NCBI GenBank assembly: GCA_002783405.1
Contig: PFGG01000065.1
Span: forward strand, 124,001-188,000
Direction of reading: 5' to 3'
Length of the DNA stretch: 64,000 bases
Source: a bacterium (Candidatus Blackallbacteria) CG13_big_fil_rev_8_21_14_2_50_49_14
GTDB lineage: Bacteria; Cyanobacteriota; Sericytochromatia; UBA7694
Of this stretch, positions 871 to 16,113 are shown one piece after another (within the stretch, counting starts at the first letter, position 1; each line of letters starts with the position of its first letter). The notes beneath the pieces were generated by a model. It was not told the DNA's origin. It searched no databases and saw only the letters and a program-made list of their open reading frames with translations. A program made the position numbers and the translations under genes.

Positions 871-889
871 CCAAAACCCCGAAAAAGGC

Positions 890-2755
890 TCAGGGCGTTT
901 CAGTCTCCGATTTGGTTTCAGGCTCTGCGGGCCCTGCAGGCTCAGCGTTCTCTAAGTCGCTATCCCCCAGCATTTTACCTAATAATTCAAAATCGACCTG
1001 ATCCATATCCACATCAATCAGGAAAACACCTTCAGCACCGCCGTCCTTGTAGCTGCCACCTGCCATCATCGATTTCATGGCCTGCAAAGTAGGCAAAAGG
1101 GTTTGAACCTCTTCATCTTCACCCATGAAAAGTTTCACCAAACTCACTATTTTGCCGAGATCCACGAAGAACATGCCAGCATCTTCCTGAAGCGCGTATT
1201 TTTCACGCAAGGCTCTGAAATAGCCATTGTCATCCAGGCTGCTGTCCTGCGCATGGGCGTAGTCAATCGCAGATTTCAAGGCGTCCATATTGCTGCCAAA
1301 AAACCACAGGTTTCCAACACGGGTATAGCCGGCCTGAATCCCCATTTCATTTTTAAGCCCTTGAGCTGCAGGGGTCATATTCGCCATATACAAAGGCGCT
1401 CCCCGATAATGGGCCTGAGGCGTTTTCGGAAAGGTAATATTCAGGGCCTGTTTTTTCTTTTGTTTGCCCTTTTTCTCAGCGCCTGTCTCAAGCGCATCAA
1501 AATCAAGTATTAATTTCTGAGTAAGGGTCTTCAAAAAAGCATCGTTGTTTTTGACACCCAAATAGATCACAGTATGCGGAGGCTGGGCTACAGTTTTGAC
1601 GGTTTCAGGGTAAAACATCGCCAGACCGACACGTCCATCACTGTGAGAGAGTATATCCTTGTCAAGATCCAGATGGGTCAGAGAACGGAAACCTTTGTAA
1701 ACAATTTCATCAATCATCTGACGTGCTTCAGCCTGATCTGCCAAAAATGATTTCAGCCCCATGGGCAAAAGATGAAAACCTTGAGAAGCCCCAAACAGCA
1801 AAGGTCTTTCAGGCGCAGCCTTCAAAACAGTCCGCAAGGGGGCCATGGGATTGCGAATAGCCTGTTCTGCCTGGCGCAAGTATTTGCGCTGGGGGGTGTC
1901 GGGCCCGTCCTGGCGAAAAGTCACAAAGGATTTCAGACGCAACCCTCTTTTGTTTATATCCAAACCCATCGCAAAGCTATTGTAGAGGTTAAAAGATTTT
2001 TCAAGCTCCTGAATAACTTCTTGGGATTCTTTTTCTGAGCTTTCGGGAATCAGGTTGGCAAATTTTTTCAAATTGCGGGGATTAAAGTAAACCCAGAACT
2101 TTTCTTTTTCCATGGATTTAAGCGTTCCCGCAAACTGACTGTCTGTGCCCAAGGATTTTCCTGAGGCAGCCGCTTGAATCGCTTGCTCTAAGAGAGAACG
2201 GCTGCCAAAAAGTAAGGTATTGCCTGAAAGGGTCATAAACACTTCAGCTTTGGCTTCTTTTGCCCCTTCTTCTTTTTTAGCAAAGCCGTAAAAAGTATGT
2301 CCTTGATAGTCAAATTCCTGAAGCAATTTATCTTTATCAGCAGTCGCTTTATCTTTCAGCTTGGCAACCACACCTGGAAAAAGTTTTTGATCGGCAATAT
2401 CAACGGCAATCAGAGCAGGCAAGGCTTCTTTGGCAGTAACATTTTTTTCGTAAACGGCAGCAGAAACATGGCTGCCAAAGAGAGGCACCAAATCTTTTTC
2501 TGCATCCAGGCCCAGCCCCTGCCCAAGTGCGGGCAGAATGTCTTTCATTCCATCTTCCACCATGGTTGAAAAAGGTTTACGCCCTAAAAAATAAGACCAG
2601 TCATTTTTATCTGTACTGATTGCCATAAAGGCATCTGCACCGGGGGGAGTATAGCGGAGATTATCTTCAAGACTGGCCCAGGCCGGCGTTATCCAAAGAC
2701 TCACAGCAGCTAAACTGCTCAGTAGGGAAAGAGAAAGTAATTTAGACTTCATCAA
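890..2755 (-). CDS. DUF3352 domain-containing exported protein
   Basis: Protein of 621 residues with a cleavable signal peptide (hydrophobic stretch to about residue 27, likely cut after WAS). The mature start, with PPGADAFMAISTD followed by a series of loss-of-function-neutral surface segments, and the whole-length layout fit the DUF3352 family, which is common in cyanobacteria and has no known reaction. Near the C-terminus there is an acidic tail (GDSDLENAEPAGPAEPE). ATG at 2755 is preceded by AAGGAG at 7 nt spacing. It probably acts in the periplasm or at the cell surface; the function is unknown. Confidence 0.8.
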   Translation of the reverse strand: MMKSKLLSLSLLSSLAAVSLWITPAWASLEDNLRYTPPGADAFMAISTDKNDWSYFLGRKPFSTMVEDGMKDILPALGQGLGLDAEKDLVPLFGSHVSAAVYEKNVTAKEALPALIAVDIADQKLFPGVVAKLKDKATADKDKLLQEFDYQGHTFYGFAKKEEGAKEAKAEVFMTLSGNTLLFGSRSLLEQAIQAAASGKSLGTDSQFAGTLKSMEKEKFWVYFNPRNLKKFANLIPESSEKESQEVIQELEKSFNLYNSFAMGLDINKRGLRLKSFVTFRQDGPDTPQRKYLRQAEQAIRNPMAPLRTVLKAAPERPLLFGASQGFHLLPMGLKSFLADQAEARQMIDEIVYKGFRSLTHLDLDKDILSHSDGRVGLAMFYPETVKTVAQPPHTVIYLGVKNNDAFLKTLTQKLILDFDALETGAEKKGKQKKKQALNITFPKTPQAHYRGAPLYMANMTPAAQGLKNEMGIQAGYTRVGNLWFFGSNMDALKSAIDYAHAQDSSLDDNGYFRALREKYALQEDAGMFFVDLGKIVSLVKLFMGEDEEVQTLLPTLQAMKSMMAGGSYKDGGAEGVFLIDVDMDQVDFELLGKMLGDSDLENAEPAGPAEPETKSETETP

Positions 2756-2913
2756 AAAGCTCCTTGCTCAATTTTGGGGCCAAATTTCAAATTCCTGTGC
2801 AGGCCATTCAGGCCGCAAACACGTTTCAGTATAGCCTGTTTAAGAGGCGAAGAGTACCCTGGTTTGCTTTGCGCTTTCCAGCATCAAACTTATACTTATA
2901 TTAAATCTACCTT

Positions 2914-2940
2914 AACCAAAAATTAATATTATTTTTGGTT
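2914..2940. repeat. Perfect 10-bp inverted repeat between divergent genes
   Basis: AACCAAAAAT and ATTTTTGGTT form perfect arms around TAATATT, inside the AT-rich 268-bp spacer between the DUF3352 gene (minus) and the lipoprotein gene (plus). Its position fits an operator, or simply an AT-rich promoter upstream element. No matching regulator is known. Confidence 0.5.
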
Positions 2941-3023
2941 TTCCTCACAAGAATATTTAAGTTTAATGCTATAAAAGATTAAAGAAAGATTAAATTCACG
3001 CCCTCTGGGAAGGATGCCTCAAC

Positions 3024-3875
3024 ATGAATTTCTCCCGCGCCAGTCTTGCCTTTACCCTTTTATTCAGCACGGTTCTCAGTGCCTGTGGTACACAAACCCT
3101 GACCGTAGCCACCCAATCCCCCCTCCAAAGCGCTTCTGTTCAAGCCGCTGCCCGTCAAAGCACTCAAACCCAGAAATCTCCTGTAAAAACAACGCAAGTC
3201 ACCGTCAACAATCTTTCTCAAGAAAAACAGGCTTTGGCTCTGCAACCCGTTTCCGCTGAAACAGTTAAAGCCCAGCTTGAACTGCGGGCTCAAAAGGCTA
3301 CCCCCAAAGCAGACGAAAACACGCCCCTGTATAGCGCCACTGAACTTGATGCCCTGAAAAAATTAGAAGCTTCACTTGCAGACCAAATCAAAGAAGAAGA
3401 CCAAAAGAATGCTTCTACACAGGGTTTTAAAACAAAATCTGCCGATCATGGCAAAGATATTGAGATTGAGATGTTTCTTTATAACCCCAAATACAGCAAA
3501 TCTGCTAAGTTTTGGGGCATCGACAATGCCAATGAATTGCTCATGGCAGGTCGTTCTCCCTTGCGCCGTTGGTTATTAAAACGAAAATTTGAAGGGCTTT
3601 GGGCTCCCCGTGGTTTTGAACAGCAAATTCTTTTCTGGGTAGAACAAGCAGATTTGCTTAGAATTACAGGTGTCAGCCGTGATCAAGCTTGGCTTTTGGT
3701 CGCAAACGGGATTACCAGCGTACCCGATCTGGCCCGTCGCAATGTGATTGAGCTCGGTGCCCTCAAGGTATCTTTGGCTCTAATGGCCTTTCAATATGGC
3801 ATGGATGCTCCCAGCCTCGATGAGTTAAAAGACTGGACCGAAGAAGCAAAAAGCCTTGAGCCGCTGATTTATTAA
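3024..3875 (+). CDS. Lipoprotein with C-terminal DUF4332-like helix-hairpin-helix region
   Basis: Protein of 283 residues. The N-terminus is a lipoprotein signal (lipobox LSAC, lipidated Cys at about residue 21). Residues 25-130 are low-complexity, rich in Gln, Ala, Ser and Lys. Residues about 150-283 are helical and contain LLRITGVSRDQAWLLVANGI followed by SVPDLARR, the pattern of a DUF4332-type helix-hairpin-helix. Such folds usually bind nucleic acid or proteins, so a lipid-anchored copy is unusual and its role unknown. The next gene begins 30 nt downstream, suggesting an operon. Confidence 0.75.
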   Translation: MNFSRASLAFTLLFSTVLSACGTQTLTVATQSPLQSASVQAAARQSTQTQKSPVKTTQVTVNNLSQEKQALALQPVSAETVKAQLELRAQKATPKADENTPLYSATELDALKKLEASLADQIKEEDQKNASTQGFKTKSADHGKDIEIEMFLYNPKYSKSAKFWGIDNANELLMAGRSPLRRWLLKRKFEGLWAPRGFEQQILFWVEQADLLRITGVSRDQAWLLVANGITSVPDLARRNVIELGALKVSLALMAFQYGMDAPSLDELKDWTEEAKSLEPLIY

Positions 3876-3905
3876 GATCGTTTCAAAAAGAAGAGTGGAG
3901 ACAAA

Positions 3906-5282
3906 ATGATTCGCGTAGACAATACCTCAACCGTCACCGTTCTGCGGAGCCTGCAAAGCCCCAGCCCCGCAGCAGTTGCTTTGAAAGCTACTGAAAACAC
4001 AACTTTGCCAGCTCAGGGAACAGATAAACTGAGCTTGTCTACTCCGCGCCCTGTTGCTGCCGCAACAGGCAATTTAAGTGCTGCCCAGCGTTTGGCGCAA
4101 GCCACACCGCTGAGTCTTTTCGATTCACCTCAAGTTCCCCCCTCCATCAAAGCGACGCCTTTAACGCCGCCTGGCCAGATAGCCCAAAAACCCTCAACCC
4201 TTGAAGATGGTTTAAATACGAATGAAGACTATCAAATGGCCTTTAAATGGGTTGAAACCGTAACAGGTAAACCCATCGCCTATCAAACCCCCGAGTCTCA
4301 GAAAGCCTATATCGCTGCCATTCAAGGTAAACCTCAAGAAGCCTATGATCCCAAGGCTTTCTTGGCCTCGATCGGCGTAAAAGGCGCACATACCTATGGC
4401 CGGGATGACAAAGGCGTGCACCAGTTGCTCTCTACCATTGACTATACGCCCAACAGTACCAATGTCTCCAAAACCCTGCGCTTTGTTCAAAAAATCTTCT
4501 TCAGCTTCTTTAAACATTTCCCCAAAACCTTCAATTGGATCGCCGACAAAACCGACAAATACTACTTCACCCGCAAAGATGCTAAAAACAAAAGCTGGGA
4601 AAAAGTTCAAGTCCCACAACCCGCATTTAACCCTAAAGATCCGCTGGTTCCTGCCAATTTGATCAAACAGGTTTATGCCGATACCCATTCCGCAAAAGCC
4701 CTGAATTCAGGCTGGAATCCCGATGCGGCAACGCTGTTTAACTCCTATTTCCTGCATGCCGATCCCGATCAGATGGGTGCCCTATTTGATGACGATTTCC
4801 ACATGGGCATCCCCGATGGTGTAGATGGCGAACAACATTACGGTTCTTATGCCATTGCCCGTCAACTGGGCTTTACAGATGCCCAGGCCCGCAGAATTGC
4901 AAAAGCCGATTTTGACATGGATCTCAACAATACGGTCTATGGAAACTCTGACGCTTTCCCCGACGGTTTGGTCAGCAAGCACTTCGATTTAAACAAAGAC
5001 AAGCCTGAAGCAGAAGATACCCGCTTTATCTGGGCTCAACGTCACCTGGATGCAGCTGTAGAACTTGCCAAACGCGGCAAGTTTGAACAGGCTGAACAGG
5101 AATTGGGCTTCGGGCTGCACAGCATTCAGGATGCCTTTGCCCATGGCCATATCCGTATTACCTCTCACGCCGTGACGGGTGAAATTCCAGACGCTGTCAA
5201 ATACAATCCTGTAGCGGCCTATGAAGCAACCCTGGCGACGATCGGTTATATGCACACCTATCTGAACCGGGTCATGTCCTAA
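3906..5282 (+). CDS. Putative zinc-dependent phospholipase C/nuclease P1-like protein
   Basis: Protein of 458 residues. Residues 1-90 are Ser/Thr/Pro/Ala-rich with no signal peptide. The C-terminal half carries HYGSYAIARQLGFTDAQARR, a DFDMD segment and HSIQDAFAHGHI. The H-x-x-Q-D-x-x-x-H arrangement resembles the metal-binding core of the zinc-dependent phospholipase C superfamily. I infer a hydrolase of lipids or phosphodiesters, but family membership rests on this motif alone. The start follows GTGGAG at normal spacing. It sits in a plus-strand run with the lipoprotein before it and the DUF4230 gene after it. Confidence 0.55.
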   Translation: MIRVDNTSTVTVLRSLQSPSPAAVALKATENTTLPAQGTDKLSLSTPRPVAAATGNLSAAQRLAQATPLSLFDSPQVPPSIKATPLTPPGQIAQKPSTLEDGLNTNEDYQMAFKWVETVTGKPIAYQTPESQKAYIAAIQGKPQEAYDPKAFLASIGVKGAHTYGRDDKGVHQLLSTIDYTPNSTNVSKTLRFVQKIFFSFFKHFPKTFNWIADKTDKYYFTRKDAKNKSWEKVQVPQPAFNPKDPLVPANLIKQVYADTHSAKALNSGWNPDAATLFNSYFLHADPDQMGALFDDDFHMGIPDGVDGEQHYGSYAIARQLGFTDAQARRIAKADFDMDLNNTVYGNSDAFPDGLVSKHFDLNKDKPEAEDTRFIWAQRHLDAAVELAKRGKFEQAEQELGFGLHSIQDAFAHGHIRITSHAVTGEIPDAVKYNPVAAYEATLATIGYMHTYLNRVMS

Positions 5283-5297
5283 GCTTCGTTCAGCCCC

Positions 5298-5921
5298 ATG
5301 CAAAAACCCGTGACGAAGGATCTCTTTTCTGTTATTGTCATGACCATTGGCATTTCCGCCCTGGCACTGGCTTGTCTTTTGTTTTGGCTTCAGGGTCAAT
5401 CCACCAGCCGCCGCCCCCAAGTCATACTGGAGCGTTTGAAAAATCTTCAGAACCTTGAAGTTTTACAAGCTCAATTGGTGGGTACTCAAAGTTTTCGTGA
5501 AGGGGCATCGATTCCCTTTGGCCACCATGAAGTCGTTGTATTGGCCCGTGGCAGAGCTGTTTACGGAGTCAATCTTGAAAAAGCCCAGATTGCAGGTTCA
5601 GGTAAAGATTTAAAACTCGAATTGCCAAGAGTGGAAGTGCTGCATGTCATTTTGAATCCCGACTCGATTAATTTTGCCGCCCCTCAAAAATCATGGTTTA
5701 CCACCCAGGAAGAATTTGAGATTTTTAGAACCCGTGCAGCAAACCAGATGCAAATCGAACTCAATAAACAGTCCCGCTCCCCTGAATTGATGGCAGAGGC
5801 AGAAAAACAGGCCACGCGCTGGCTAACGCTTTGGCTTGAAAATCTGGGTTTTCATGATGCAAAGGTTAGATTTAAATACACCCACGCAGCTTCTGAAGCA
5901 CTTCAGAGCGCAAGCCCTTAA
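5298..5921 (+). CDS. DUF4230-like membrane-anchored protein
   Basis: Protein of 207 residues with one N-terminal membrane helix (about residues 10-32) and an outside domain. The segments LEVLQAQLVGTQSF, VVVLARGRAVYGVNLEK and LPRVEVLHVILNPDS, then a helical tail with many Gln and Glu, fit the DUF4230 family. No enzymatic function is known. It begins 15 nt after the preceding stop without a clear Shine-Dalgarno site, so translational coupling is likely. A shared terminator follows at 5934. Confidence 0.7.
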   Translation: MQKPVTKDLFSVIVMTIGISALALACLLFWLQGQSTSRRPQVILERLKNLQNLEVLQAQLVGTQSFREGASIPFGHHEVVVLARGRAVYGVNLEKAQIAGSGKDLKLELPRVEVLHVILNPDSINFAAPQKSWFTTQEEFEIFRTRAANQMQIELNKQSRSPELMAEAEKQATRWLTLWLENLGFHDAKVRFKYTHAASEALQSASP

Positions 5922-5933
5922 ACCCGCAAGAAA

Positions 5934-5957
5934 AAAGGGGCTGTCGACAGCCCCTTT
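5934..5957. terminator. Bidirectional intrinsic terminator
   Basis: Perfect palindrome AAAGGGGCTG-TC-GA-CAGCCCCTTT with A-rich and T-rich flanks, lying between the convergent DUF4230 and LPP20 genes. It can end transcription from both sides. Confidence 0.9.
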
Positions 5958-5964
5958 ATTTTAC

Positions 5965-6939
5965 TTACATCACCACTGCTACATTTAATTTGCTGAGAAA
6001 TCCTGTTTTGGCATCTTCAGCTTGAATTTTGGCTGCATCCTCAGCCGAAATCACAAAGTCAACTCCGCTTTCACTGGTGCCCGTCGCCTTTACAACCAAG
6101 GGATTGCTTCCTGCCCGCTGCACACTGTTCAAGCTGCGGTGATAGGCGATGATGCCTTCTGCAATGACACGATCAATATCCAATTCAAAATTGCCGATAT
6201 AGACCTGTTGTTCATCGGTCACGACCGTGGGTGACATGGCGGGTTGCACGGTCAGGCCCGAAGCATCAATGATCAAGCCGGTATAGCCCTGGGGCTTAAC
6301 CACTGGCTTGGCAGAAGGCTTCGGACTGGGCTTGGCGGTAGGTTTTATGATCGGCACTTTTTTCGGTTTGGCAGCCAAGGTAACCATGGCATACTGTTGC
6401 CCCGGAATCCAGGCCAGCGGAGAATCGGTAACCCCCAACCAGGACTGTTTATAACGCTCCTGTTGTCTGCGCAAGGTCTTTTCAAGATCAATCGCAGGGG
6501 CCAAGCCTTGCGAACCAAACATGGGCATTGAAAGATCCACCTCAACCGAACCATCACTGAGATAACGCTCTTTGCCAACAGGCGCGGCCTTGATCAAAGC
6601 AGAAACTTTCAGACGCACGGTATCGCTCTCAGTGACATAATTCTTAACAATGGTTTCTGAATCGACCTGCACCCCATTCACAATTTCTGCGAGTTGACGG
6701 TAGGCATCGGCTGTCGCTGCTCGTTTCGCCATCAAACGCTTTTGGGCTGAAGAACCATTCTCTGGGGGGGCACCACTGCCGGTAACGGTAATCATTTTCT
6801 GAGTCCAATCGATACTGCCAGAACCCATGGTCTGCATCACATTTACCGATTGAGCCTGGGTGGCCTGGGGCAAAATTGAAAGGCTGGCGGCAGAGACCAA
6901 CAGAGCCGTAGAAAGTAGAATTTGTAAGCTTTTTTTCAT
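5965..6939 (-). CDS. Exported LPP20/FlgT-N-like protein
   Basis: Protein of 324 residues with a signal peptide (to about TQAQS, residue 31). It has the LPP20-type pattern ITVTGSGAPPENG, AQKRLMAKRAATADAYRQLA and EIVNGVQVDSET, a fold shared with the N-terminal part of the flagellar protein FlgT. Residues about 195-217 are a KP-rich linker of alternating Lys-Pro. After it comes a second small domain ending in LNVAVVM. No Cys is near the N-terminus, so it is secreted rather than lipidated. An AAGGAG lies 15 nt before the ATG, farther than usual. The role is unknown; envelope or motility is plausible. Confidence 0.75.
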   Translation of the reverse strand: MKKSLQILLSTALLVSAASLSILPQATQAQSVNVMQTMGSGSIDWTQKMITVTGSGAPPENGSSAQKRLMAKRAATADAYRQLAEIVNGVQVDSETIVKNYVTESDTVRLKVSALIKAAPVGKERYLSDGSVEVDLSMPMFGSQGLAPAIDLEKTLRRQQERYKQSWLGVTDSPLAWIPGQQYAMVTLAAKPKKVPIIKPTAKPSPKPSAKPVVKPQGYTGLIIDASGLTVQPAMSPTVVTDEQQVYIGNFELDIDRVIAEGIIAYHRSLNSVQRAGSNPLVVKATGTSESGVDFVISAEDAAKIQAEDAKTGFLSKLNVAVVM

Positions 6940-6977
6940 GACGGTTGAGAAATTCTCCTTGGATTTTTTCCACTCTC

Positions 6978-7005
6978 ATTATAAGTAGGAAATCGGGAAT
7001 GTAAA
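6978..7005 (-). promoter_or_regulatory. Sigma-70-type promoter for the LPP20 gene
   Basis: On the minus strand TTTACA, 16 nt spacer, TATAAT, about 40 nt before the ATG at 6939. Good match to the housekeeping consensus apart from the slightly short spacer. Confidence 0.6.
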
Positions 7006-7101
7006 GCGAGCTGGCTTACACTGCAAAAGTGAGTTTTTCAAGTTTTAAATTTTTTTTCAGATTTTTTTTGAACACTCGTTTGAAGCACCGTGTCTAAAAG
7101 T

Positions 7102-7139
7102 TTGGAGAGAGCAAAGACTTATCTTTGCCCTCTTTCCAA
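7102..7139 (+). promoter_or_regulatory. Long hairpin/inverted repeat in the htrA leader
   Basis: TTGG, AGAG and GCAAAGA pair with TCTTTGC, CTCT and CCAA around a CTTA loop, with one mismatch and a 2-nt bulge (15 base pairs). No U-run follows, so it is not a terminator. It ends 38 nt before the htrA ATG, so it could be a repressor operator or an mRNA structure. Confidence 0.5.
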
Positions 7140-7177
7140 TGGTAGAATCAACACCGTAATCACAAGGAGATTTGGAA

Positions 7178-8641
7178 ATGAAACGAACAACCCCCTATCT
7201 GTTGGCACTTTCCCTGACGGGCGTGTTAGGTCTGGGGGTAGGGCTGGCGGCACCGCATCTGGCTCCGCTCGTGACACCGCCAGTAGAAGCCCAGACCAGA
7301 AATGTCCCAACTCTGAATAAACTCAATGAGGATTTCATCGCGATTTCTGAAACCGTCACACCGGCAGTGGTCAGTATTTCCATGAGCAAAACCCTGAAAA
7401 GCCCCGGAAAAAATCACCCCCAGATTCCTGAAGAATTTGAAGAATTTTTTGGCCTGCCGTCTCAGCCACAAGGCCCTCAAAAGCAACAGGGCGTAGGCTC
7501 TGGGGTGGTGGTCGATGCCGCCAAGGGCTATATTCTTACCAATAATCACGTGGTTGCAGATGCCGATGAAATCAAAGTCACGCTCAGCGATCGCCGCACG
7601 TTTAAAGCAAAAATCATCGGCACCGATCCCCGCACCGACTTGGCCGTGATTCAGGTCAATGGTGCAAAAGACTTGAAACAGGTTGCTTTGGGAGATTCCA
7701 AAGATCTTGAAGTGGGCGAATGGGTCTTGGCCATTGGCAACCCCTTCGGCCTGAGTTCCACTGTCACGGCAGGCATTATCAGCGCAAAGGGACGCGCCAA
7801 TGTGGGCGTCGCCGATTTTGAAGACTTTATTCAGACCGATGCCGCGATCAATCCTGGCAACAGTGGCGGCGCCCTGGTGAATATCAAAGGGGAGCTGATT
7901 GGGATCAATACAGCGATTGCAACCCGCTCCAAAGGCTATATGGGAATTGGCTTCGCCATCCCCAGCAATATGGCCAAACAGGTCATGCAAAACCTGATTT
8001 CAAAAGGCAAGGTCAACCGTTCTCAACTGGGTGTTTTCATTCAAGCGCTGGATGATTCCATGGCCCAAGGCCTGGGATTGAAAGACAGCCGTGAAGGCAT
8101 TCTGGTCAGTGGCGTGATCGAAGGCTCCCCCGCCGATAAGGCCGGACTGAAAAAATACGACGTGATTTTGCGCCTGAATGGCAAGACGGTCAACGACAGC
8201 AACCAGTTCAGAAACCAAGTCGCCATGACCCCAGCTGGTTCCACTCTGGAAATCGAAGTCTTACGCAATGGCCAACGCCTGAAGGTCAAACCCCAACTGC
8301 GCGAAATGGAAAGTGGCGGTAAAAACAACACCAACAATCAGGTGCCAGAACTCAACGATAAAAGAGGCTTTCAAATTCTGGAACTGAATCCAGCCCTGCG
8401 TCAGCAACTGCGGGTTCCCGCTCAGGTAGAAGGCGTGGTGGTCAATCAGGTCTCTCCCCTGAGTGATGCCTATGAAAAAGGTTTGCGTGAAGGCGATATC
8501 ATCACCGAAGTCAACCGCAAGCCCGTAAAATCAAGTGATCAGTTCAATTCCATCTTCAATAAATTGAAGAGTGGAGACGTGGTTCTGCTCTCGATTCAGA
8601 GAGAGATGGCCTCGATCGTGATTGCCTTTGAAATGCCTTAA
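7178..8641 (+). CDS. htrA: HtrA/Deg-family serine protease with two PDZ domains
   Basis: Periplasmic protease/chaperone that degrades misfolded envelope proteins. It has 487 residues: signal peptide (cut near VEAQT, residue 40), trypsin-like domain with catalytic His124 (TNNHVV), Asp154 (RTDLAVI) and Ser229 (GNSGGAL), then two PDZ domains (about 275-375 and 390-487). This layout is that of the Do/Deg family. ATG at 7178 is chosen because AAGGAGA lies 7 nt before it; the in-frame TTG at 7172 would leave only 1 nt. A hairpin lies in the leader and a terminator follows. A second, lipid-anchored paralogue lies at 59606. Confidence 0.95.
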   Translation: MKRTTPYLLALSLTGVLGLGVGLAAPHLAPLVTPPVEAQTRNVPTLNKLNEDFIAISETVTPAVVSISMSKTLKSPGKNHPQIPEEFEEFFGLPSQPQGPQKQQGVGSGVVVDAAKGYILTNNHVVADADEIKVTLSDRRTFKAKIIGTDPRTDLAVIQVNGAKDLKQVALGDSKDLEVGEWVLAIGNPFGLSSTVTAGIISAKGRANVGVADFEDFIQTDAAINPGNSGGALVNIKGELIGINTAIATRSKGYMGIGFAIPSNMAKQVMQNLISKGKVNRSQLGVFIQALDDSMAQGLGLKDSREGILVSGVIEGSPADKAGLKKYDVILRLNGKTVNDSNQFRNQVAMTPAGSTLEIEVLRNGQRLKVKPQLREMESGGKNNTNNQVPELNDKRGFQILELNPALRQQLRVPAQVEGVVVNQVSPLSDAYEKGLREGDIITEVNRKPVKSSDQFNSIFNKLKSGDVVLLSIQREMASIVIAFEMP

Positions 8642-8651
8642 GGTTTAATTG

Positions 8652-8684
8652 AAAAGCCCCCCGAAAAATCAGGGGGCTTTTTTT
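8652..8684. terminator. Intrinsic terminator after htrA
   Basis: AAAAGCCCCC and GGGGGCTTTTTTT pair around CGAAAAATCA. It lies between convergent htrA and sqr and has T-runs in both directions. Confidence 0.9.
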
Positions 8685-8702
8685 ATGGGCAGATTGCCCT
8701 GA

Positions 8703-9899
8703 TTAAAGTTGACCGCGCATCATGCCGTTCCAGTACATTTGGGGCAAGCCATAGGCTTTCAGCATATACATGCTGAAACGTTCCTGTGACTGATCAAAGG
8801 GGAAGGATTCGACCGGTTTGCTGTCATAGTCGAATTCAGCCAGGATCAGGCTGCCATAGCCGGTAACCAGGGGGCAGGAAGAATAGCCATTGTAAAAGCC
8901 TGTCAGTGGACGGTTCTGCATATAGGCCATCAGGTTTTCAACCAGAACAGGCGCCTGTTTGCGAATCGCCGCACCGGTACGGGCCGTTGGCACATTGGTA
9001 CAATCCCCCAAGGCAAAAATATCGGGAAACTTGGCCTGCTGCATGGTGTTTTTATCGATCTCCACAAAGCCAGCGGCATCAACCAATGGGCTCTGCTGAA
9101 TGAAAGCAGGTGCACTCATGGGTGGGGTAACATGCATCATATCGTATTTGAGCACTTGTTCTGCGCCCGTATCGAGGTGCTTAAAGACAGCTTCCTGTTG
9201 AGCGCCCCGTACTTCAACCAACTCATTGCGGAAATGGGTATCGGTGATATCTTTGCGTTTGAGCACTTTTTCGAGCGCGGTTTTGTACTTGGCGACGCCA
9301 AAAATACTGGCAAGACCACTGGCGAAGACCATCTTGGTTTTGCTGCGCACATGGGATTTGCTGCGGAAATAATCCTCTGTCATATACAGGGCTTTTTGAG
9401 GGGCTCCACCACATTTGATCGGGGTGCCGGGCTGGGTAAAGATCGCAGTTCCGCCTTTAAAATTTTTGACCAAATCCCAGGTGCTGTCGACGGTTTCATA
9501 GGAATAATTGCTGCAAACATTGTATTTGCCAATGCTTTCGCGCAGGCCCGTCACCTTGTCCCAGTTCAGCTCCATCCCAGCAGAGACCACCAGGTAGTCA
9601 TAGCCAATTTTCTGACCCGAGGCCAGGGTAATCGCTTTCTCTTCGGGCTGGAAGCTGGCAACTTTGTCCTGAATCCAGTCCACACCGGCAGGAATATAAT
9701 CGACTTCATTGCGCTCAGAGATTTCTTTGGGAAAAACACCCCCGCCGACCAGGGTCCAGAGGGGCTGATAATAATGCTTATTGGAAGGCTCAATCAAGCC
9801 AATTTCAAGGCTTTCAGATGCATTGCGCAGACGGGCGGCAACGGCAATTCCCCCGGTTCCACCCCCCACAATCAGAATTTTATAATGGGTTTTCGACAT
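8703..9899 (-). CDS. sqr: Sulfide:quinone oxidoreductase, type II-like
   Basis: FAD enzyme that oxidises sulfide to sulfane sulfur and passes electrons to the quinone pool at the membrane. It has 398 residues: the FAD motif GGGTGG at 12-17, then HYYQPLWTLVGGG at 42-54. Cys163 (in KCGGAPQK) and Cys342 (in YSSCPLVTG) lie 179 apart, matching the redox pair of mitochondrial-type SQR; an extra Cys129 is present. A second Rossmann motif ends in DIFALGDCTNVP. AGAGGT lies 7 nt before the ATG. It is 13 nt downstream of the DUF1641 gene, and both probably read from the FNR/Dnr-type promoter at 10837-10878. The physiological role (energy or sulfide detoxification) is inferred. Confidence 0.9.
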   Translation of the reverse strand: MSKTHYKILIVGGGTGGIAVAARLRNASESLEIGLIEPSNKHYYQPLWTLVGGGVFPKEISERNEVDYIPAGVDWIQDKVASFQPEEKAITLASGQKIGYDYLVVSAGMELNWDKVTGLRESIGKYNVCSNYSYETVDSTWDLVKNFKGGTAIFTQPGTPIKCGGAPQKALYMTEDYFRSKSHVRSKTKMVFASGLASIFGVAKYKTALEKVLKRKDITDTHFRNELVEVRGAQQEAVFKHLDTGAEQVLKYDMMHVTPPMSAPAFIQQSPLVDAAGFVEIDKNTMQQAKFPDIFALGDCTNVPTARTGAAIRKQAPVLVENLMAYMQNRPLTGFYNGYSSCPLVTGYGSLILAEFDYDSKPVESFPFDQSQERFSMYMLKAYGLPQMYWNGMMRGQL

Positions 9900-9912
9900 G
9901 GTAATTTACCTC

Positions 9913-10806
9913 TTAATTTTTGGAGTGGGGCAGACTGCTGGCCTGCAGAGAATGACTGAAATGGCGAACAAAACTCAATAAAAAGCCCATACTGCTACGG
10001 AACTCAGGCTCCATCAAAGCTTTGACCATCTGGAGGATCGAAGCAGGCTGATATTCCTGCTCACTGCGAGCCAAAGCTTCTCCTGCCGAAGCCACCACGG
10101 AAACAGTATGAATATCCAAAAGACCGTGGCGCAAACTGGCGATTAAGCGGTCCAGATCGTGCCCGGCCATATAACTCTTATAGAGATCATCCAGAGTATC
10201 GACACCTGTTCCGATCATCCCAGGAATATCGCCCAGAATTTTAATCAGGGGAACAAACTGATCCGCATGGTGAGCCAATACTTCAAAGGCTTCCAGCATG
10301 TCTGGGCGCCCAAGTATCGGCAGAAAGCGGCTGAGCGCTTCAAGGGTCTGAATGTTTTCAGGACGGGAAATTTCAAGCATCAGCTTCAAAACCGGTTCCA
10401 ACCGATTGCTGAGGTCGGTGCCAGAAGCTTTCAGACTGGCAGCTTCAGCATCAAGACTGTCAACAGCAGTACTCATCATGCCAGGCATATCGCCCAGAAT
10501 ATTCAACCAGGGTAAAAACTGGTCTTTTTTATGCACCAAGTGTTCCAGCGTTTCAAGTACCTCAGGTTCGGTCAATTCATCGAGCATGCGCAGGGCAGAA
10601 GGCAGGCGTTCAGGCCATTGAGCCCCTTCGACCCGCAGCGGGGCACTCAGCTCATCGAGGGTATTGACGGCTGTGGCCGCCATTCCTGGAATTTCCTGCA
10701 GGGCTTTTTCAGATTTTTCAAGTCGGGATTCGAGTTGATCGAGACGGGCCAAAATTTGATCCAGACGACTGACAATCGCTTCAGAAGTTAATTCGGGTGG
10801 GCTCAT
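9913..10806 (-). CDS. DUF1641 domain-containing protein
   Basis: Protein of 297 residues. An N-terminal coiled coil (IVSRLDQILARLDQLESRLE) is followed by three related repeats, each with an IPGM or MPGM core near residues 55, 120 and 205 (for example LGDMPGMMSTAVDSLDA and LGDIPGMIGTGVDTLDD). It ends in a DUF1641 tail (SSMGFLLSFVRHFSHSLQ). DUF1641 proteins often neighbour sqr or formate dehydrogenase genes, and here it precedes sqr by 13 nt. It is probably an accessory or scaffold protein for the oxidoreductase; no enzymatic motif is visible. Confidence 0.85.
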   Translation of the reverse strand: MSPPELTSEAIVSRLDQILARLDQLESRLEKSEKALQEIPGMAATAVNTLDELSAPLRVEGAQWPERLPSALRMLDELTEPEVLETLEHLVHKKDQFLPWLNILGDMPGMMSTAVDSLDAEAASLKASGTDLSNRLEPVLKLMLEISRPENIQTLEALSRFLPILGRPDMLEAFEVLAHHADQFVPLIKILGDIPGMIGTGVDTLDDLYKSYMAGHDLDRLIASLRHGLLDIHTVSVVASAGEALARSEQEYQPASILQMVKALMEPEFRSSMGFLLSFVRHFSHSLQASSLPHSKN

Positions 10807-10836
10807 ACTGGCACCTTCCTATATACTATAGACCGT

Positions 10837-10878
10837 ATGATACACTATTTCTGCAAAAAATTTCTTGATCCAGGTCAA
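10837..10878 (-). promoter_or_regulatory. FNR/Dnr-type box and -10 element for DUF1641-sqr
   Basis: TTGACCTGGATCAA on the minus strand (10865-10878) is a close match to the TTGAY-N4-RTCAA box of CRP/FNR-family regulators (FNR, Dnr, Nnr). TATCAT (10837-10842) is one base from the -10 consensus. The predicted start of transcription, about 10830, puts the box centre at -41.5, the class II activator position. Translation starts 24 nt further on, at 10806, after AGGAAGG. Confidence 0.65.
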
Positions 10879-10934
10879 TTTTTAGATCGAATTTGAAATT
10901 TTTGAATTTATAAAATTTGCGAACGAAGCTGCAA

Positions 10935-11336
10935 TCAAGGCTGGGGGGCAAATTGGCTTTGGCGTTGCGCTTGTGCGGTAATGGTCTGCTCAGAAATCTG
11001 AACCTGCAATTGAATTTGAATCAACCCCGAAGCCGTCCATTGAGACTGGGCCTGAAACTGTACGTCTTTTTGTGAGAGCGTGCGCTGTAATAATCTTGAA
11101 AACTCACTGTAAAAGGCTTGCTGTGATTTTTGACGAGCCTCTTCAGGGGTACGGGATTGTTGCGAGGCCTTGAGTGCAAAATCTAAAGCTTGAGACAAGG
11201 GCCCCACCAAACGGGGCTGGGCCTTGCTCTGAACCTCGGGGCTCAAGGGAGGAGAAACTTGGCAGGCCACCAAAACAGGGCTGAAAAAACAGACTGCGCA
11301 GAGAACCGGAAGTATTAACTTTCTTGACATAAACAT
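10935..11336 (-). CDS. Small lipoprotein of unknown function
   Basis: Protein of 133 residues. The signal peptide ends in the lipobox LVAC (Cys about residue 25). The mature part is Gln/Ser-rich. It has a helix around QQSRTPEEARQKSQQ, then alternating hydrophobic strands (GLIQIQLQVQISEQTI) that suggest a small beta domain. I do not recognise the family. An in-frame ATG two codons downstream (11330) is an alternative start. It is divergent from the zinc-ribbon gene. Confidence 0.65.
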   Translation of the reverse strand: MFMSRKLILPVLCAVCFFSPVLVACQVSPPLSPEVQSKAQPRLVGPLSQALDFALKASQQSRTPEEARQKSQQAFYSEFSRLLQRTLSQKDVQFQAQSQWTASGLIQIQLQVQISEQTITAQAQRQSQFAPQP

Positions 11337-11412
11337 ATCTTAACACTCTTCAAATACTTTCATGCAGAGGAATAAAAACAGATTCAAAATTGATTTTGTT
11401 TTTTTTTTGAAC

Positions 11413-11509
11413 CACAGGAGAACGTCAGGAAAAGACGATAGTTTTGATACCCGGTAATCTCGAGAATTTGCCCAACGCTATGTGCCTGTGAAACAAAATC
11501 ACAGGAGAA
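11413..11509 (+). other. Possible structured leader with duplicated CACAGGAGAA
   Basis: CACAGGAGAA occurs at 11413-11422 and again at 11500-11509, just before the zinc-ribbon ATG (11519). CCTGTG at 11485-11490 can pair with either copy's CACAGG. The 3' pairing would mask the AGGAG at 11503. A small CGTC/GACG hairpin lies between. This would allow two exclusive structures, but it matches no riboswitch class I know. Confidence 0.35.
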
Positions 11510-11518
11510 GTAGGAAGT

Positions 11519-11842
11519 ATGAATTGTCCACGCTGTCAGGCAGCAGAGCTGCAAAACAAATCCCGAAATGGTCAAATTTTTCTGGTTTGCCCCCGTTGTC
11601 AGCTGATCAAAGTTGATTTACGGGCCCACCGAGGTGAAGCTCTGATCTCACTCGAAAATCAGCCCAAACTGAGCTTGGGTAAACTGACTCGCGCCAATCA
11701 GAGTTTTCAGAGAACTCAGCTTGAGACCCAGGTTCAAGCAGATCATCGCTTGGCATCTGCACGTCACGATTTTCAGCGGCAGGCCATGAATCCCCCTTTG
11801 CAGGAACGAGAACCTTCTTTTGAAGAGTTTCATCTGAACTAA
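11519..11842 (+). CDS. Small zinc-ribbon protein
   Basis: Protein of 107 residues. The N-terminus has two CPxC knuckles (MNCPRCQ and VCPRCQ, about 20 residues apart), a four-Cys zinc ribbon. The rest is polar and probably disordered or helical, ending in an acidic tail (EREPSFEEFHLN). Such small proteins often bind nucleic acid or another protein. I cannot assign a function. Its leader has the duplicated motif described at 11413, and a terminator follows. Confidence 0.7.
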   Translation: MNCPRCQAAELQNKSRNGQIFLVCPRCQLIKVDLRAHRGEALISLENQPKLSLGKLTRANQSFQRTQLETQVQADHRLASARHDFQRQAMNPPLQEREPSFEEFHLN

Positions 11843-11869
11843 AGCATTTCTGAGTTTAAAACGGAGACT

Positions 11870-11905
11870 GGCTGCGAGTAAAGGTATGCTCGCAGCCTAA
11901 TTTTT
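11870..11905 (+). terminator. Intrinsic terminator after zinc-ribbon gene
   Basis: GGCTGCGAG (11870-11878) pairs with CTCGCAGCC (11889-11897) and is followed by AATTTTT. Confidence 0.8.
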
Positions 11906-11962
11906 GGGGATAAGGTATAATACTTAGCATCTCAAAAATTACTCTTAAATCAAGATCAGTAA

Positions 11963-14146
11963 ATGAAAATGAAGCAAAGCGCCACCCGTACACTTTTTTT
12001 GACCACCACTCTGGCTGCAATCCTTTCGGTTTCAGCCTGCGGAAATCCGAGCAGTACCTCGGCTCCCACCCCCAATACAGGGAATATTCCCCAATTGGCC
12101 ACGCAACCGACCCCCCAGAGCAGCCAACTGAAAAAAATTCGCTTCAGTGGACATATTTTTGACAGCAGCACTGGAGAAAATATTGAACAGGCCATGATCT
12201 GGATTCAAAGTACAGATCCAGCAGGCCCAACTCCGACCGCCAGTTCCGGCACCACAACCCCGACTCCACCGCCGACAACAGCAACGCCTGCAGCAAGTGC
12301 AGCGACAGCGGCGCCAGCGGCGCCAGCCGCAACGCCTGCCCCGCCCAGCACAGGCGCAACACCCCCAACGGCACAACCGACTCCACCCCCTGCCAGTTCT
12401 GCGCCTCCGCTGCCCATTCCACCAGGCACAGACAGCGTTCCTACCCCGGCTCCCCCCAATGGCTTGCCCCAAGGGCTTGCGCCAGGAGAAGGCTGGCTTT
12501 GGGGCGTAGGCGCACAAGCCGCCACGCCTCCCAAAGCGTCGAATAAAGAGACAGGTATTTTCCGCACAACAACCAACAATCAGGGAAAATTTTGGATCAA
12601 TGATGTGCCAGAAGGCAATTATACGGTGACCGTTCAGGCGCCGAAATACCGCACCCTGACCCTGACCCAAGTCGGTACTGGCCAGCTTGAAATTGCCTTA
12701 TCGCCTTTAAACCCCGTCCAGACCACAGATATGACCGGCATGGTGCTGTCTGCTTCGGATACCCCTGTGGCCCGCGCCCATGTCTCCCCCTCCTATTTTT
12801 GGGGCGACAGCGCAGGTTTACCCGCTCAGAGCAATGCCCTGGGCGAATATTTGCTCCAGGAAGTTCCCTACGGCAGCCATATCCTGGCAGCCTTTGTCAT
12901 GGACGAGGACTATGTCATTCAGAAGCTGGGCTTCAGCGATGAAGTGTCTGTGACAGCCAAAAGCATCAAGTCCACCTCTCCAGTCTTTGCTCCGGCTTCA
13001 GATTCAGGCGTCAAACTGCCCTCTGATCCACGCACGGAAAGCGAAAAACGCAAAGAGCTTGAGGACAAGGTCGAAAATATCCTCAAAGAAACACCCGCGC
13101 CGGAAGCCTCTCCAGACGAAACTGAACCGCCTGTTGAATCACCCAAGCCCAAGGCGATCCCATCGCCAGCCCCCAGCGCTTCTGCACCTGTTCAACCCAA
13201 AGGCACAGCGGCTCCCAATACACCGCCTGAAAAAGATCCTGTTGAAAATGAAGAAGAGGAAAAGGAAAAAACCTTTAATCTTTTCAGTGCCGTCAATGAA
13301 CTGGTTACCGGAAAAAAAGCAGAGGACGCAGAGAGCGTCAAAGATGGCTCGGTCTACCCTGTGATCACCCTGCATTCTGTGCTCAGTGATTTTAAAATTG
13401 AGGGCAAAGTCACTGTTCCCCCCGGATTTCATTATCGGGGCATGGAAGTCTATTTGACCTTGAAACCCGCCAAAGATCAGCGCCCCCAGGAAGTCTTGCT
13501 CTTTACCCTGCCTGGCAAATCACCGGATTCAAAAGCAAGTGAAGACGACGAAAGCAAGAAAGACAGCAAAAAACCAACAGAAAAAGGAACGCCGCCAGCA
13601 GACCCTGGCCAGCCTGAAATTCAAGATTTCGCGCTGCGCCTGCCCAGTCTGGAAAAAGGCCAAAGCTACCATTTTCAATTTACCGCCGCAGCCAAAGAGC
13701 CTGGAAGTTTGCTTTACCACCATATTTACGAAATTGGTGAAAAGAACGCCAAAGCACTTGAGGCCAGTTTCATGCCTGCTCCCACTGCAATTGAAATTGA
13801 AGGCGAAGAAGACAATGCGGTACCCACCTCGCCACAATTTGCCTGGGAAGCAGTTCCTGGTGCAGAGTACTACCGCATCTTGCTGGAAGCCGGAAATGCC
13901 CCCGACAATAAGGTCGTTTGGGAAGCCTGGACCAAAGACACGCGTATTGTCTATCCACTCAAAACCAGCAATGGCCGCCTCAAAGAAGGTGAATTGTATA
14001 CGGTCTCGGTGGCGGCCCTCAAGGGGCTCAAACCTGCGCTCAAAAACAGCAAAGAAACCTATGCACACCCAGGTTATCAAGCCATTTGGACAGATTTATC
14101 CACGCTTACGCACAGCCCCTTTGAAGTCGTAAAAACGGAACCCTGA
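11963..14146 (+). CDS. Large lipoprotein with carboxypeptidase-regulatory-like domains
   Basis: Protein of 727 residues anchored by a lipobox (VSAC, Cys about residue 27). An Ala/Pro/Thr-rich stretch (about residues 90-170) interrupts the first beta-sandwich. That sandwich then continues with the carboxypeptidase-regulatory pattern GKFWINDVPEGNYTVTVQAP. A second copy (TGMVLSASDTPVARAHVSP then GEYLLQEVPYGSHILAAFV) follows, then a charged Pro/Lys/Glu linker. A fibronectin-III-like end has PQFAWEAVPGAEYYRILLEA. It looks like a surface adhesin or structural lipoprotein. A TATAAT lies at 11916, without a good -35. The TTG-start gene follows 14 nt downstream. Confidence 0.75.
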   Translation: MKMKQSATRTLFLTTTLAAILSVSACGNPSSTSAPTPNTGNIPQLATQPTPQSSQLKKIRFSGHIFDSSTGENIEQAMIWIQSTDPAGPTPTASSGTTTPTPPPTTATPAASAATAAPAAPAATPAPPSTGATPPTAQPTPPPASSAPPLPIPPGTDSVPTPAPPNGLPQGLAPGEGWLWGVGAQAATPPKASNKETGIFRTTTNNQGKFWINDVPEGNYTVTVQAPKYRTLTLTQVGTGQLEIALSPLNPVQTTDMTGMVLSASDTPVARAHVSPSYFWGDSAGLPAQSNALGEYLLQEVPYGSHILAAFVMDEDYVIQKLGFSDEVSVTAKSIKSTSPVFAPASDSGVKLPSDPRTESEKRKELEDKVENILKETPAPEASPDETEPPVESPKPKAIPSPAPSASAPVQPKGTAAPNTPPEKDPVENEEEEKEKTFNLFSAVNELVTGKKAEDAESVKDGSVYPVITLHSVLSDFKIEGKVTVPPGFHYRGMEVYLTLKPAKDQRPQEVLLFTLPGKSPDSKASEDDESKKDSKKPTEKGTPPADPGQPEIQDFALRLPSLEKGQSYHFQFTAAAKEPGSLLYHHIYEIGEKNAKALEASFMPAPTAIEIEGEEDNAVPTSPQFAWEAVPGAEYYRILLEAGNAPDNKVVWEAWTKDTRIVYPLKTSNGRLKEGELYTVSVAALKGLKPALKNSKETYAHPGYQAIWTDLSTLTHSPFEVVKTEP

Positions 14147-14160
14147 GAAAGGTAAATCCC

Positions 14161-15015
14161 TTGAAAAAAGCTTTGCTCACCCCATTGATCCTCTCAACCG
14201 CCCTGACAGGCCCTGTTATTGCCCAAGAAACTCCGGCTTCAACAGCCCAACCGGCCAACTCACCTGTCAATGCACGGTTTGAGTTTGGCAACCGGCAATA
14301 CAAGGGGCAATTCAGCCTGCGTTACTGGTATGGAAACAACAGTATCGACCAATGGCTAAAGAGCAAAGACAGCAGCAGCGGGATTGATATTTTTAACAAT
14401 ACCAAGCTCTCTTTGGGCATGCTCAATGTCAATACCGATTATTGGTTTGGCATTGTAACCCCTGAGGGGCTGGGATTTTTAGGCACTGTTTTTGGCCTGG
14501 GCCTTTCCGTGGACTATATGGATCAATTGGTTCAGGACGTGCGCCTGATGACCTATATGATGGATTTTCAATTTGCCAAGGTCTCGCTTTGGCATGACCA
14601 GGACTGGAAAAACAATATCGTTCTCAGCGGGCACTATATCAGCTATTTCAATATGATTTACAATAACCTGCCCCCCCTGCCTTTTCAAGCCGCGCCCTAT
14701 TTTGGCGCGGGCATTGGCCTAGAAGGGAAGCATCCAATTTCAGAGCTGGGCGAAATCAGTTATAAACTGGTTTATGTGCCCAATTCACGCACCCCCAACC
14801 CCTTGCCCGATGGCATGGGCTTGCTGAGTGAAATCAATACCCGTTGGTTTTTAAACCCCAACCTGGCATTTAATCTGGGTTACCGGTTTAATTTTTTCAG
14901 AAGCAGCGGGGATGGAAGTGCGACTTCAGCCTCAACGGGCAGTGAAGTGAAATTGACCCGAACACTTGAAGACATGTTCCATGGGGTAAATATTGGCTTT
15001 ACGAACTATTTCTGA
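14161..15015 (+). CDS. Outer-membrane beta-barrel-like protein
   Basis: Protein of 284 residues starting at TTG (14161), preceded by GAAAGG at 8 nt. The signal peptide is cut near VIAQE (about residue 22). The mature part alternates hydrophobic and polar strands rich in Tyr, Trp, Phe and Asn (for example YKGQFSLRYWYGNNS and FNLGYRFNFFRSSG) and ends in FTNYF, the aromatic C-terminal signature of outer-membrane barrels. The function is unknown; it probably shares an operon with the large lipoprotein before it. Confidence 0.65.
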   Translation: MKKALLTPLILSTALTGPVIAQETPASTAQPANSPVNARFEFGNRQYKGQFSLRYWYGNNSIDQWLKSKDSSSGIDIFNNTKLSLGMLNVNTDYWFGIVTPEGLGFLGTVFGLGLSVDYMDQLVQDVRLMTYMMDFQFAKVSLWHDQDWKNNIVLSGHYISYFNMIYNNLPPLPFQAAPYFGAGIGLEGKHPISELGEISYKLVYVPNSRTPNPLPDGMGLLSEINTRWFLNPNLAFNLGYRFNFFRSSGDGSATSASTGSEVKLTRTLEDMFHGVNIGFTNYF

Positions 15016-15117
15016 AAATAGACATCAGGGCTGAAATCCTGTAATATTCCATAGAGTTATTCCTACCCCAAATTACAAAACATAGAAAAATCGATCCGCT
15101 CAACGAAGGAGGCCTGC

Positions 15118-16113
15118 GTGGCGCAAGAGGCACTACTCAAGGTAATAGACCTGGCAACCTATTTCACTACTGAAGAGGGTACTGTTAAGGCTGTAGACGG
15201 CGTAGACTTTGAAGTTCGCCGTGGCGAAGTGGTGGGTGTAGTCGGTGAGTCCGGCTGCGGCAAGAGTATCACTTCCATGTCGGTACTGCGCTTGATTGCA
15301 AAGCCCCAAGGGAAAATTGTCAGAGGCAAAATTCTCTTTGAAGGCCAAGATTTATTGGCCCTTTCTGAAGAAGATATGCGTAAAATCCGCGGTAATAAAA
15401 TTGCCCTGATTTCACAAGACCCCATGACCTCGCTCAACCCTGTTTTAACCGTTGGCGAACAGATCATGGAAGCCATCATGCTCCACCAAGGTTTGGAGCG
15501 GGATGCCGCTAAAACCAAAGCGATTGAAATGCTGCGCAAAGTGGGCATTCCTGAACCCGAAAAACGTGTCGATCAATACCCGCACCAATTTTCAGGTGGG
15601 ATGCGCCAGCGTGCCATTATCGCCATGGCTCTCTCCTGCGAACCCAAACTCTTGATTGCCGATGAGCCCACCACAGCCCTCGATGTCACGATTCAGGCTC
15701 AAATTCTTGATTTGATGCGTGAAATCAAAGAAAAATACAATGCCGGGATTATTTTTATTACCCACGATTTGGGTGTTGTGGCTGAAATGTGTGATTTTGT
15801 CTGCGTTATGTATGCAGGCAAAGTGGTAGAGGCCACCGATGTCTTTACCCTGTTTAAAACCCCCAGCCACCCCTATACCCTGGGTCTTTTAAAATCTATC
15901 CCCCGTTTGGATGAAATCAAAGATCGGCTGGACTCGATTGACGGACAACCCCCCAGCCTGAGCAAACTGCCCAAAGGCTGTGCTTTTGCACCCCGTTGTG
16001 TTGAAGCCAAAGAAATCTGCAAACAAAAAGAACCCGAACTGATCCGGGTAGGCGTCAACCAATTTGCACGCTGCCTGATGCGCGATGAATGGAAGGCCGA
16101 GGAAGCACAATGA
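15118..16113 (+). CDS. dppD: Oligo/dipeptide ABC transporter ATP-binding protein, DppD/OppD type
   Basis: ATPase powering peptide (or nickel/opine) import with a partner ATPase, two permeases and a binding protein. It has 331 residues: Walker A GESGCGKS (43-50), signature FSGGMRQR (158-165) and Walker B LLIADEPT (178-185). The C-terminal extension, with Cys residues in [14 protein letters not shown], is typical of this subfamily. It starts at GTG (15118) after AAGGAGG. It overlaps dppF by 4 nt (ATGA). No permease or substrate-binding gene lies in this window, so the transported substrate cannot be told. Confidence 0.92.

Follow-up and report, generated by a model that had tools for sequence, protein, structure and literature searches.

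Class II activation by FNR from a site centred at -41.5 is a standard arrangement, as at the cld promoter of Ideonella (PMC7349173). The sqr promoter described here, from a Sericytochromatia bacterium, shares with the class II promoters of E. coli FNR and Ideonella cld a box at -41.5, a -10 element 22 bp downstream, a weak or absent -35 and membership of an anaerobic respiration regulon, and it differs in its target, a type II sqr, in an overlapping CstR-type operator and in a candidate FNR that lacks an equivalent of C29 and has Val at the position of Ser212. In Staphylococcus aureus, CstR senses persulfides and represses cstA, cstB and sqr (PMC5480029). Here too a single CsoR-family repressor gene adjoins tauE, the cysteines of its product are 29 residues apart, and the putative regulon includes persulfide dioxygenase, sulfurtransferase/rhodanese and type II sqr genes. 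In contrast to the cst system, the targets are spread over about nine loci and not one operon, the His of the CsoR position is retained, and an FNR box is added at sqr.

Two further systems come close to this locus. In Bacillus licheniformis, sqr and pdo answer both to the CstR-like YrkD and to the NreBC two-component system (PMC9918477), which is likewise a combination of a CstR-like repressor with a separate activator. The activator of B. licheniformis is a sulfide-responsive two-component system linked to a separate intergenic region, whereas here the activator site, of the CRP/FNR kind, belongs to the promoter itself and lies 22 bp from its -10. The ArsR-family proteins SqrR, BigR and YgaV, which control sqr and blh, are also reactive-sulfur-sensing repressors of sulfide oxidation genes (PMC9774250, PMC5823870), and the SqrR-type site ATTC-N8-GAAT has the half-site spacing of the ATAC-N8-GTAT found here, but the gene adjoining the operator in the present case is of the CsoR family and not an ArsR gene. 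In the literature searched, which took in few subscription journals, we found joint control of sqr by a CstR-like protein and a two-component system, and no precedent for a single sqr promoter that combines an FNR box with an operator of the CstR type.

The DUF1641-sqr operon and its promoter

Sericytochromatia are the non-photosynthetic sister class of cyanobacteria and are invoked in arguments on how respiration arose around the cyanobacterial origin; we know of essentially no studies of their gene regulation. The host genome (G000; 5.65 Mb, 84 contigs) belongs to a Sericytochromatia bacterium, and the closest named records by SQR are Candidatus Sericytochromatia bacteria. It was compared with a genome of the same genus (JADMKE010000032, G001), whose SQR is 89% identical to that of the host, and with one of a sister genus in the same family (JACYMC010000075, G002), whose SQR is 70% identical. 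The window is the whole 64-kb stretch of host DNA that was analysed. Its features at sqr, and the two regulators encoded elsewhere in the host genome, are as follows.

10865..10878, minus strand: FNR-type box TTGACCTGGATCAA, zero mismatches to TTGAY-N4-RTCAA, centre 10871.5
10837..10842, minus strand: -10 hexamer TATCAT, 22 bp after the box (TATTAT in G001)
10830, minus strand: predicted transcription start, from the box and -10 geometry, with a 24-nt leader
10821..10842, given as plus strand: putative CstR-type operator ATATACTATAGACCGTATGATA, overlapping the -10 and the predicted start
10814..10820, minus strand: ribosome-binding site AGGAAGG, read directly
9913..10806, minus strand: DUF1641 protein gene, 297 aa, first gene of the operon (PF07849, 23 bits against a cut-off of 21)
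8703..9899, minus strand: sqr, sulfide:quinone oxidoreductase of the mitochondrial SQOR kind, 398 aa (human SQOR match)
C54:7447-8151, host genome: FNR-like regulator, 234 aa
C47:43456-43674, host genome: CsoR-family protein (PF02583 above cut-off)

Translation of the DUF1641 gene starts at an ATG at 10806 on the minus strand, and orthologues of its product were found in two genomes of the same family. The SQR matches human SQOR over its full length (E 6.5e-131) with both redox-cysteine motifs aligned (KCGGAPQK and SCPLVTGY), and by this alignment it is a type II sulfide:quinone oxidoreductase. No second SQR was found in the host genome, where one weak partial match reached 32%. A small lipoprotein-like gene (10935-11336, minus strand) lies directly upstream of the sqr promoter in the same direction, and it is kept in G001.

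The earlier note had read a TTGAY-N4-RTCAA box ahead of the operon, with TATCAT at the place of a -10 for a box centre of -41.5. Both readings are confirmed by the sequence: the box is an exact match from 10878 to 10865 on the minus strand, and its spacing to the hexamer is 22 bp. With TATCAT taken as -12 to -7, and +1 thus at 10830, the box centre falls at -41.5. The sqr promoter showed no -35/-10 pair of the sigma-70 type, and the box itself was ruled out as a -35 element, since its TTGACC stands 30 bp from the -10, which is too far.

Taken alone, the match of the box to the consensus would be weak evidence. The window holds three exact boxes, the other two of which (46025 and 48245) lie within coding sequence, and 18 one-mismatch boxes against about 10.6 expected. 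What places the sqr box above chance is its conservation in the genus, together with the genome-wide excess of boxes, the boxes shared between orthologues and the peaks in -10 and tandem-box spacing presented below. Indeed, the DUF1641-sqr promoter of G001 has TTGACATGGATCAA, then 22 nt and TATTAT, with diverged flanks and spacer. The sqr promoter of the sister-genus genome G002 has no FNR box; there the DUF1641-sqr pair is divergent from a YeeE/DUF6691 pair, and a -35-like TTGATT stands ahead of TATACT. The expectation that the box would be conserved ahead of orthologous DUF1641-sqr pairs was thus borne out within the genus and failed in the sister genus, so FNR control of sqr would be a genus-level trait. 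Upstream of 80 sqr loci of other phyla, box and operator gave scattered matches only, the operator-like ATAC-N8-GTAT giving an uninformative five upstream matches against two in control stretches. Altogether, there is good support for a putative class II site of the FNR type in front of the DUF1641-sqr operon.

The FNR-type regulon and its candidate regulators

The host genome contains 78 exact boxes, compared with 13 for a reversed control pattern and about 25 by an estimate from base composition, and 42 of the 78 read TTGAT-N4-ATCAA. When the proteins encoded in 3-kb stretches around the boxes of G000 and G001 were compared, about 20 further confident orthologous genes had an upstream box in both genomes, for which the chance estimate is well under one. 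The annotated targets include the nosZ operon, an ODP-type flavodiiron protein, pyruvate:ferredoxin oxidoreductase (POR), HemA, a P-type ATPase with a CcoI/FixI metal-binding domain, COX2-cytochrome c, a universal stress protein (Usp), a DUF2202 pair and an MBL protein of the Blh type. A further target is a COX3-like gene with the gene of the FNR-like regulator behind it. The genome-wide search proposed earlier finds boxes ahead of the nosZ operon and of cytochrome oxidase subunit genes in both genomes.

The spacing within this set is also regular. In the 119 boxes that were oriented, the -10-like motif TAnnnT is most frequent 22-23 bp (9 and 7 cases) and 44-45 bp (15 and 10) after the box, with 0-6 and mostly 1-4 cases at other offsets. 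Moreover, 31 of the 151 boxes of G000 and G001 have a second box, scored at 7 or more matches out of 10, at a distance of 22 bp, against about 4; 12 have one at 23 bp, and other offsets usually give 1-8. We take the gene-proximal box to occupy the class II position and to have, in many cases, a partner two helical turns upstream. Tandem boxes 22 bp apart would put dimers at -41.5 and -63.5. The regulon-wide -10 spacing of 22 and 44 bp fits the geometry claimed for sqr.

A regulator of the CRP/FNR family, on which the earlier proposal depended, is present. A search with HTH_Crp_2 gave eight proteins of this type in the host genome, two further matches being of other families. The FNR-like protein on C54 has equivalents of E. 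coli C20 and C23, as a CxxC pair, and of C122, and no equivalent of C29. Among its other cysteines, C33 and that of a YC[LV] motif, a motif kept in nearly all orthologues of the family and order, could serve as the fourth cluster ligand. Its recognition helix reads ETTVR where E. coli has ETISR (ExxSR), with Val for Ser212; its E and R recur in all orthologues, which are found across the family and order. The cluster type and the exact DNA preference of this protein are putative because of the missing C29 equivalent and the Val in place of Ser. The COX3-like gene and the regulator gene (G000:C54 6538-8151) have a perfect FNR box upstream, an arrangement kept in G001, and the regulator gene is probably autoregulated.

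Two other regions of the genome encode CRP/FNR-type proteins that deserve mention. A denitrification region (G000:C50:52000-70000, stretch positions 662-15491) comprises nirK with a fused cytochrome c domain, a SCO-like protein, nnrS, a CRP/FNR regulator, a cytochrome c, nosZ and nosDFY; this content suggests that a Sericytochromatia genome encodes the reduction of nitrite and N2O. A third CRP/FNR protein, on C32, has the recognition helix REVVSR and is encoded at a contig end, with no sulfur genes in its available neighbourhood; a role as sqr regulator is possible but unsupported.

The 22-bp operator and the CsoR-family protein

The sequences following the boxes of sqr, blh and DUF2202 have in common the pattern ATATACYATA-N4-GTATANTA. 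We call it CstR-type, a label assigned without direct comparison to experimentally mapped CstR operators. The copy at sqr in the window has one mismatch to ATATACTATANNNNGTATANTA, and the sqr promoter of G001 carries a perfect copy. The pattern was searched in seven genomes and gave 12 strand matches in G000 and 11 in G001, against 2 and 0 for a reversed control, the count in G006 being nearer to background. It recurs about ten times per genome (about nine loci in G000), mostly ahead of sulfur genes. In G000-G003 these include persulfide dioxygenase (PDO), rhodanese, TauE/SafE, YeeE/YedE and DUF6691 genes, a SoxA-like cytochrome operon, a CoA-disulfide-reductase-like gene, thioredoxin, DUF302 and sqr. 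The sister genus keeps the operator at sqr and not the FNR box.

Some of these loci are of interest in their own right. The SoxA-like diheme cytochrome gene (G000:C64:95000-100000, 1066-2775) comes after that of a 231-aa protein, with a perfect copy of the CstR-type operator ahead of them; the unit and its operator are kept in G001 and apparently in G003, and it is a candidate thiosulfate-oxidising unit. A DUF302-like gene, which adjoins a stomatin/SPFH-like gene, has a CstR-type operator ahead of it in G000 and G001.

G000 and G001 each have exactly one CsoR-family gene, and in both it is divergent from tauE with the operator in between. The protein carries C34 and C63 at a separation of 29 residues, and in the alignment with 7mq1 they take the positions of CstR C31 and C60. 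The closest relative of known structure is 7mq1/7mq2, which was deposited under the name CsoR. The protein retains the copper-ligand His of CsoR (AQHLHEC), and for this reason the repressor is called CstR-like by context only. As the ATAC-N8-GTAT spacing matches the ATTC-N8-GAAT of SqrR, an ArsR-family SqrR/BigR protein was considered as owner of the operator, and the host genome does have six ArsR-like matches. It is disfavoured, given that the CsoR-family gene lies directly beside a copy of the operator and is the sole member of its family in each genome.

Box and operator also occur together more often than expected. In G000, three of about nine operator loci, those of sqr, blh and DUF2202, lie no more than about 45 bp from an FNR box (chance P about 4e-7), and these loci combine box and operator in G001 as well. 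The spacing from box to hexamer is exactly 22 bp at sqr and blh in both genomes and 20-21 bp at DUF2202. No exact FNR box was found near the tauE, PDO and yeeE operators of G000; sulfide oxidation by SQR and Blh thus seems to answer to both inputs, the export and detoxification operons to the sulfur input only. The blh gene (G000:C13:44600, and G001) encodes a short Blh-type persulfide dioxygenase that matches the dioxygenase half of NF040641. The DUF2202 protein pair is found at G000:C55:68019, its FNR box and CstR-type operator being present in both same-genus genomes.

A two-input reading of the sqr promoter

The earlier note suggested that an FNR/Dnr-type regulator switches sqr on. The class II site is supported by its conservation in the genus, by the layout of the regulon and by an FNR-like gene with a box at its own locus, but the claim is incomplete. 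Given that a CstR-type operator overlaps the -10 and the start, induction of sqr is probably more than a simple response to low oxygen or NO. We consider it probable, on the strength of these sequence comparisons, that a composite switch controls sqr, with an activator of the FNR type and a repressor that senses persulfide in the manner of CstR. From the observed sequences, spacing, conservation and regulon membership, and from the presence and location of both regulators, we infer the following assignment of proteins to sites, the signals and the AND logic. An FNR-type protein, most likely that of C54:7447-8151, would bind TTGACCTGGATCAA at -41.5 at low oxygen or with NO, and would act as a class II activator of RNA polymerase at a promoter without a usable -35. 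The CstR-like CsoR-family repressor (C47:43456-43674), sitting on the operator over the -10 and the start, would block initiation and be released when its paired cysteines react with persulfide derived from sulfide. SQR would therefore be made mainly when low oxygen or NO coincides with reactive sulfur.

Other readings assign one of the two sites differently. The sqr box might be used by a DNR/NnrR-type NO sensor, the regulator at C50:57036, in which case NO and not O2 would be in control. The TTGAY-N4-RTCAA consensus is common to FNR-type and DNR-type proteins, and this regulator adjoins nnrS in the denitrification region, with nirK, nosZ and a boxed cytochrome c-nosZ operon nearby. Yet its helix, STLYTISR, is without the glutamate that the FNR-like protein retains and that, in the recognition helix of FNR, contacts the G-C pair of TTGA; boxes also stand ahead of POR, hemA and oxidase genes, which is more typical of an O2 regulon. 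We regard this reading as unlikely, and the signal at the box may be O2 or NO, because nirK, nnrS, nosZ and the second CRP/FNR regulator are also present. Less probable still is a role of the CsoR-family protein in copper sensing, with the 22-bp operator controlling copper-linked and not sulfide-linked expression. The Cys-His-Cys triad keeps the spacing of copper-sensing CsoR, and in NCBIfam the protein matches one model only, that of the copper sensor RicR, with a score far short of the cut-off. However, nearly all operators with an identified gene precede sulfur genes, no copper exporter stands behind the operator among the sites read in G000-G003, and the best solved match shares both cysteines but has Asn at the position of the His.

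It seems very improbable that the box is a chance match and that sqr has an ordinary sigma-70 promoter or is controlled by the 22-bp operator alone. Two of the three exact boxes in the window do lie inside coding sequence, and the sqr promoter of the sister genus has the operator and the -35-like TTGATT without an FNR box. Against this stand the genus-conserved box with its 22-bp spacing, the regulon-wide -10 peaks, the identical layout at blh in both genomes and the lack of a -35 at the required distance in the sqr promoter. The composite switch, with an FNR-type activator and a CstR-like repressor, is the reading that we retain.

To conclude, the locus is a concrete candidate for a two-input promoter of sulfide oxidation in Sericytochromatia, and it also yields two candidate regulons, one for FNR with about 20 conserved targets and one for persulfide comprising about nine loci. 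The sister genera differ by gain or loss of the FNR input at sqr, the sulfur-sensing input being retained. We tentatively suggest, as a possibility that we hold short of an even chance, that the genus recruited an FNR-type box onto CstR-repressed promoters (sqr, blh and the DUF2202 pair), forming an AND gate that might couple sulfide oxidation to microaerobic or nitrogen-oxide respiration. If this AND gate is true, sulfide-driven reduction of nitrite or N2O would be an example of such coupling.
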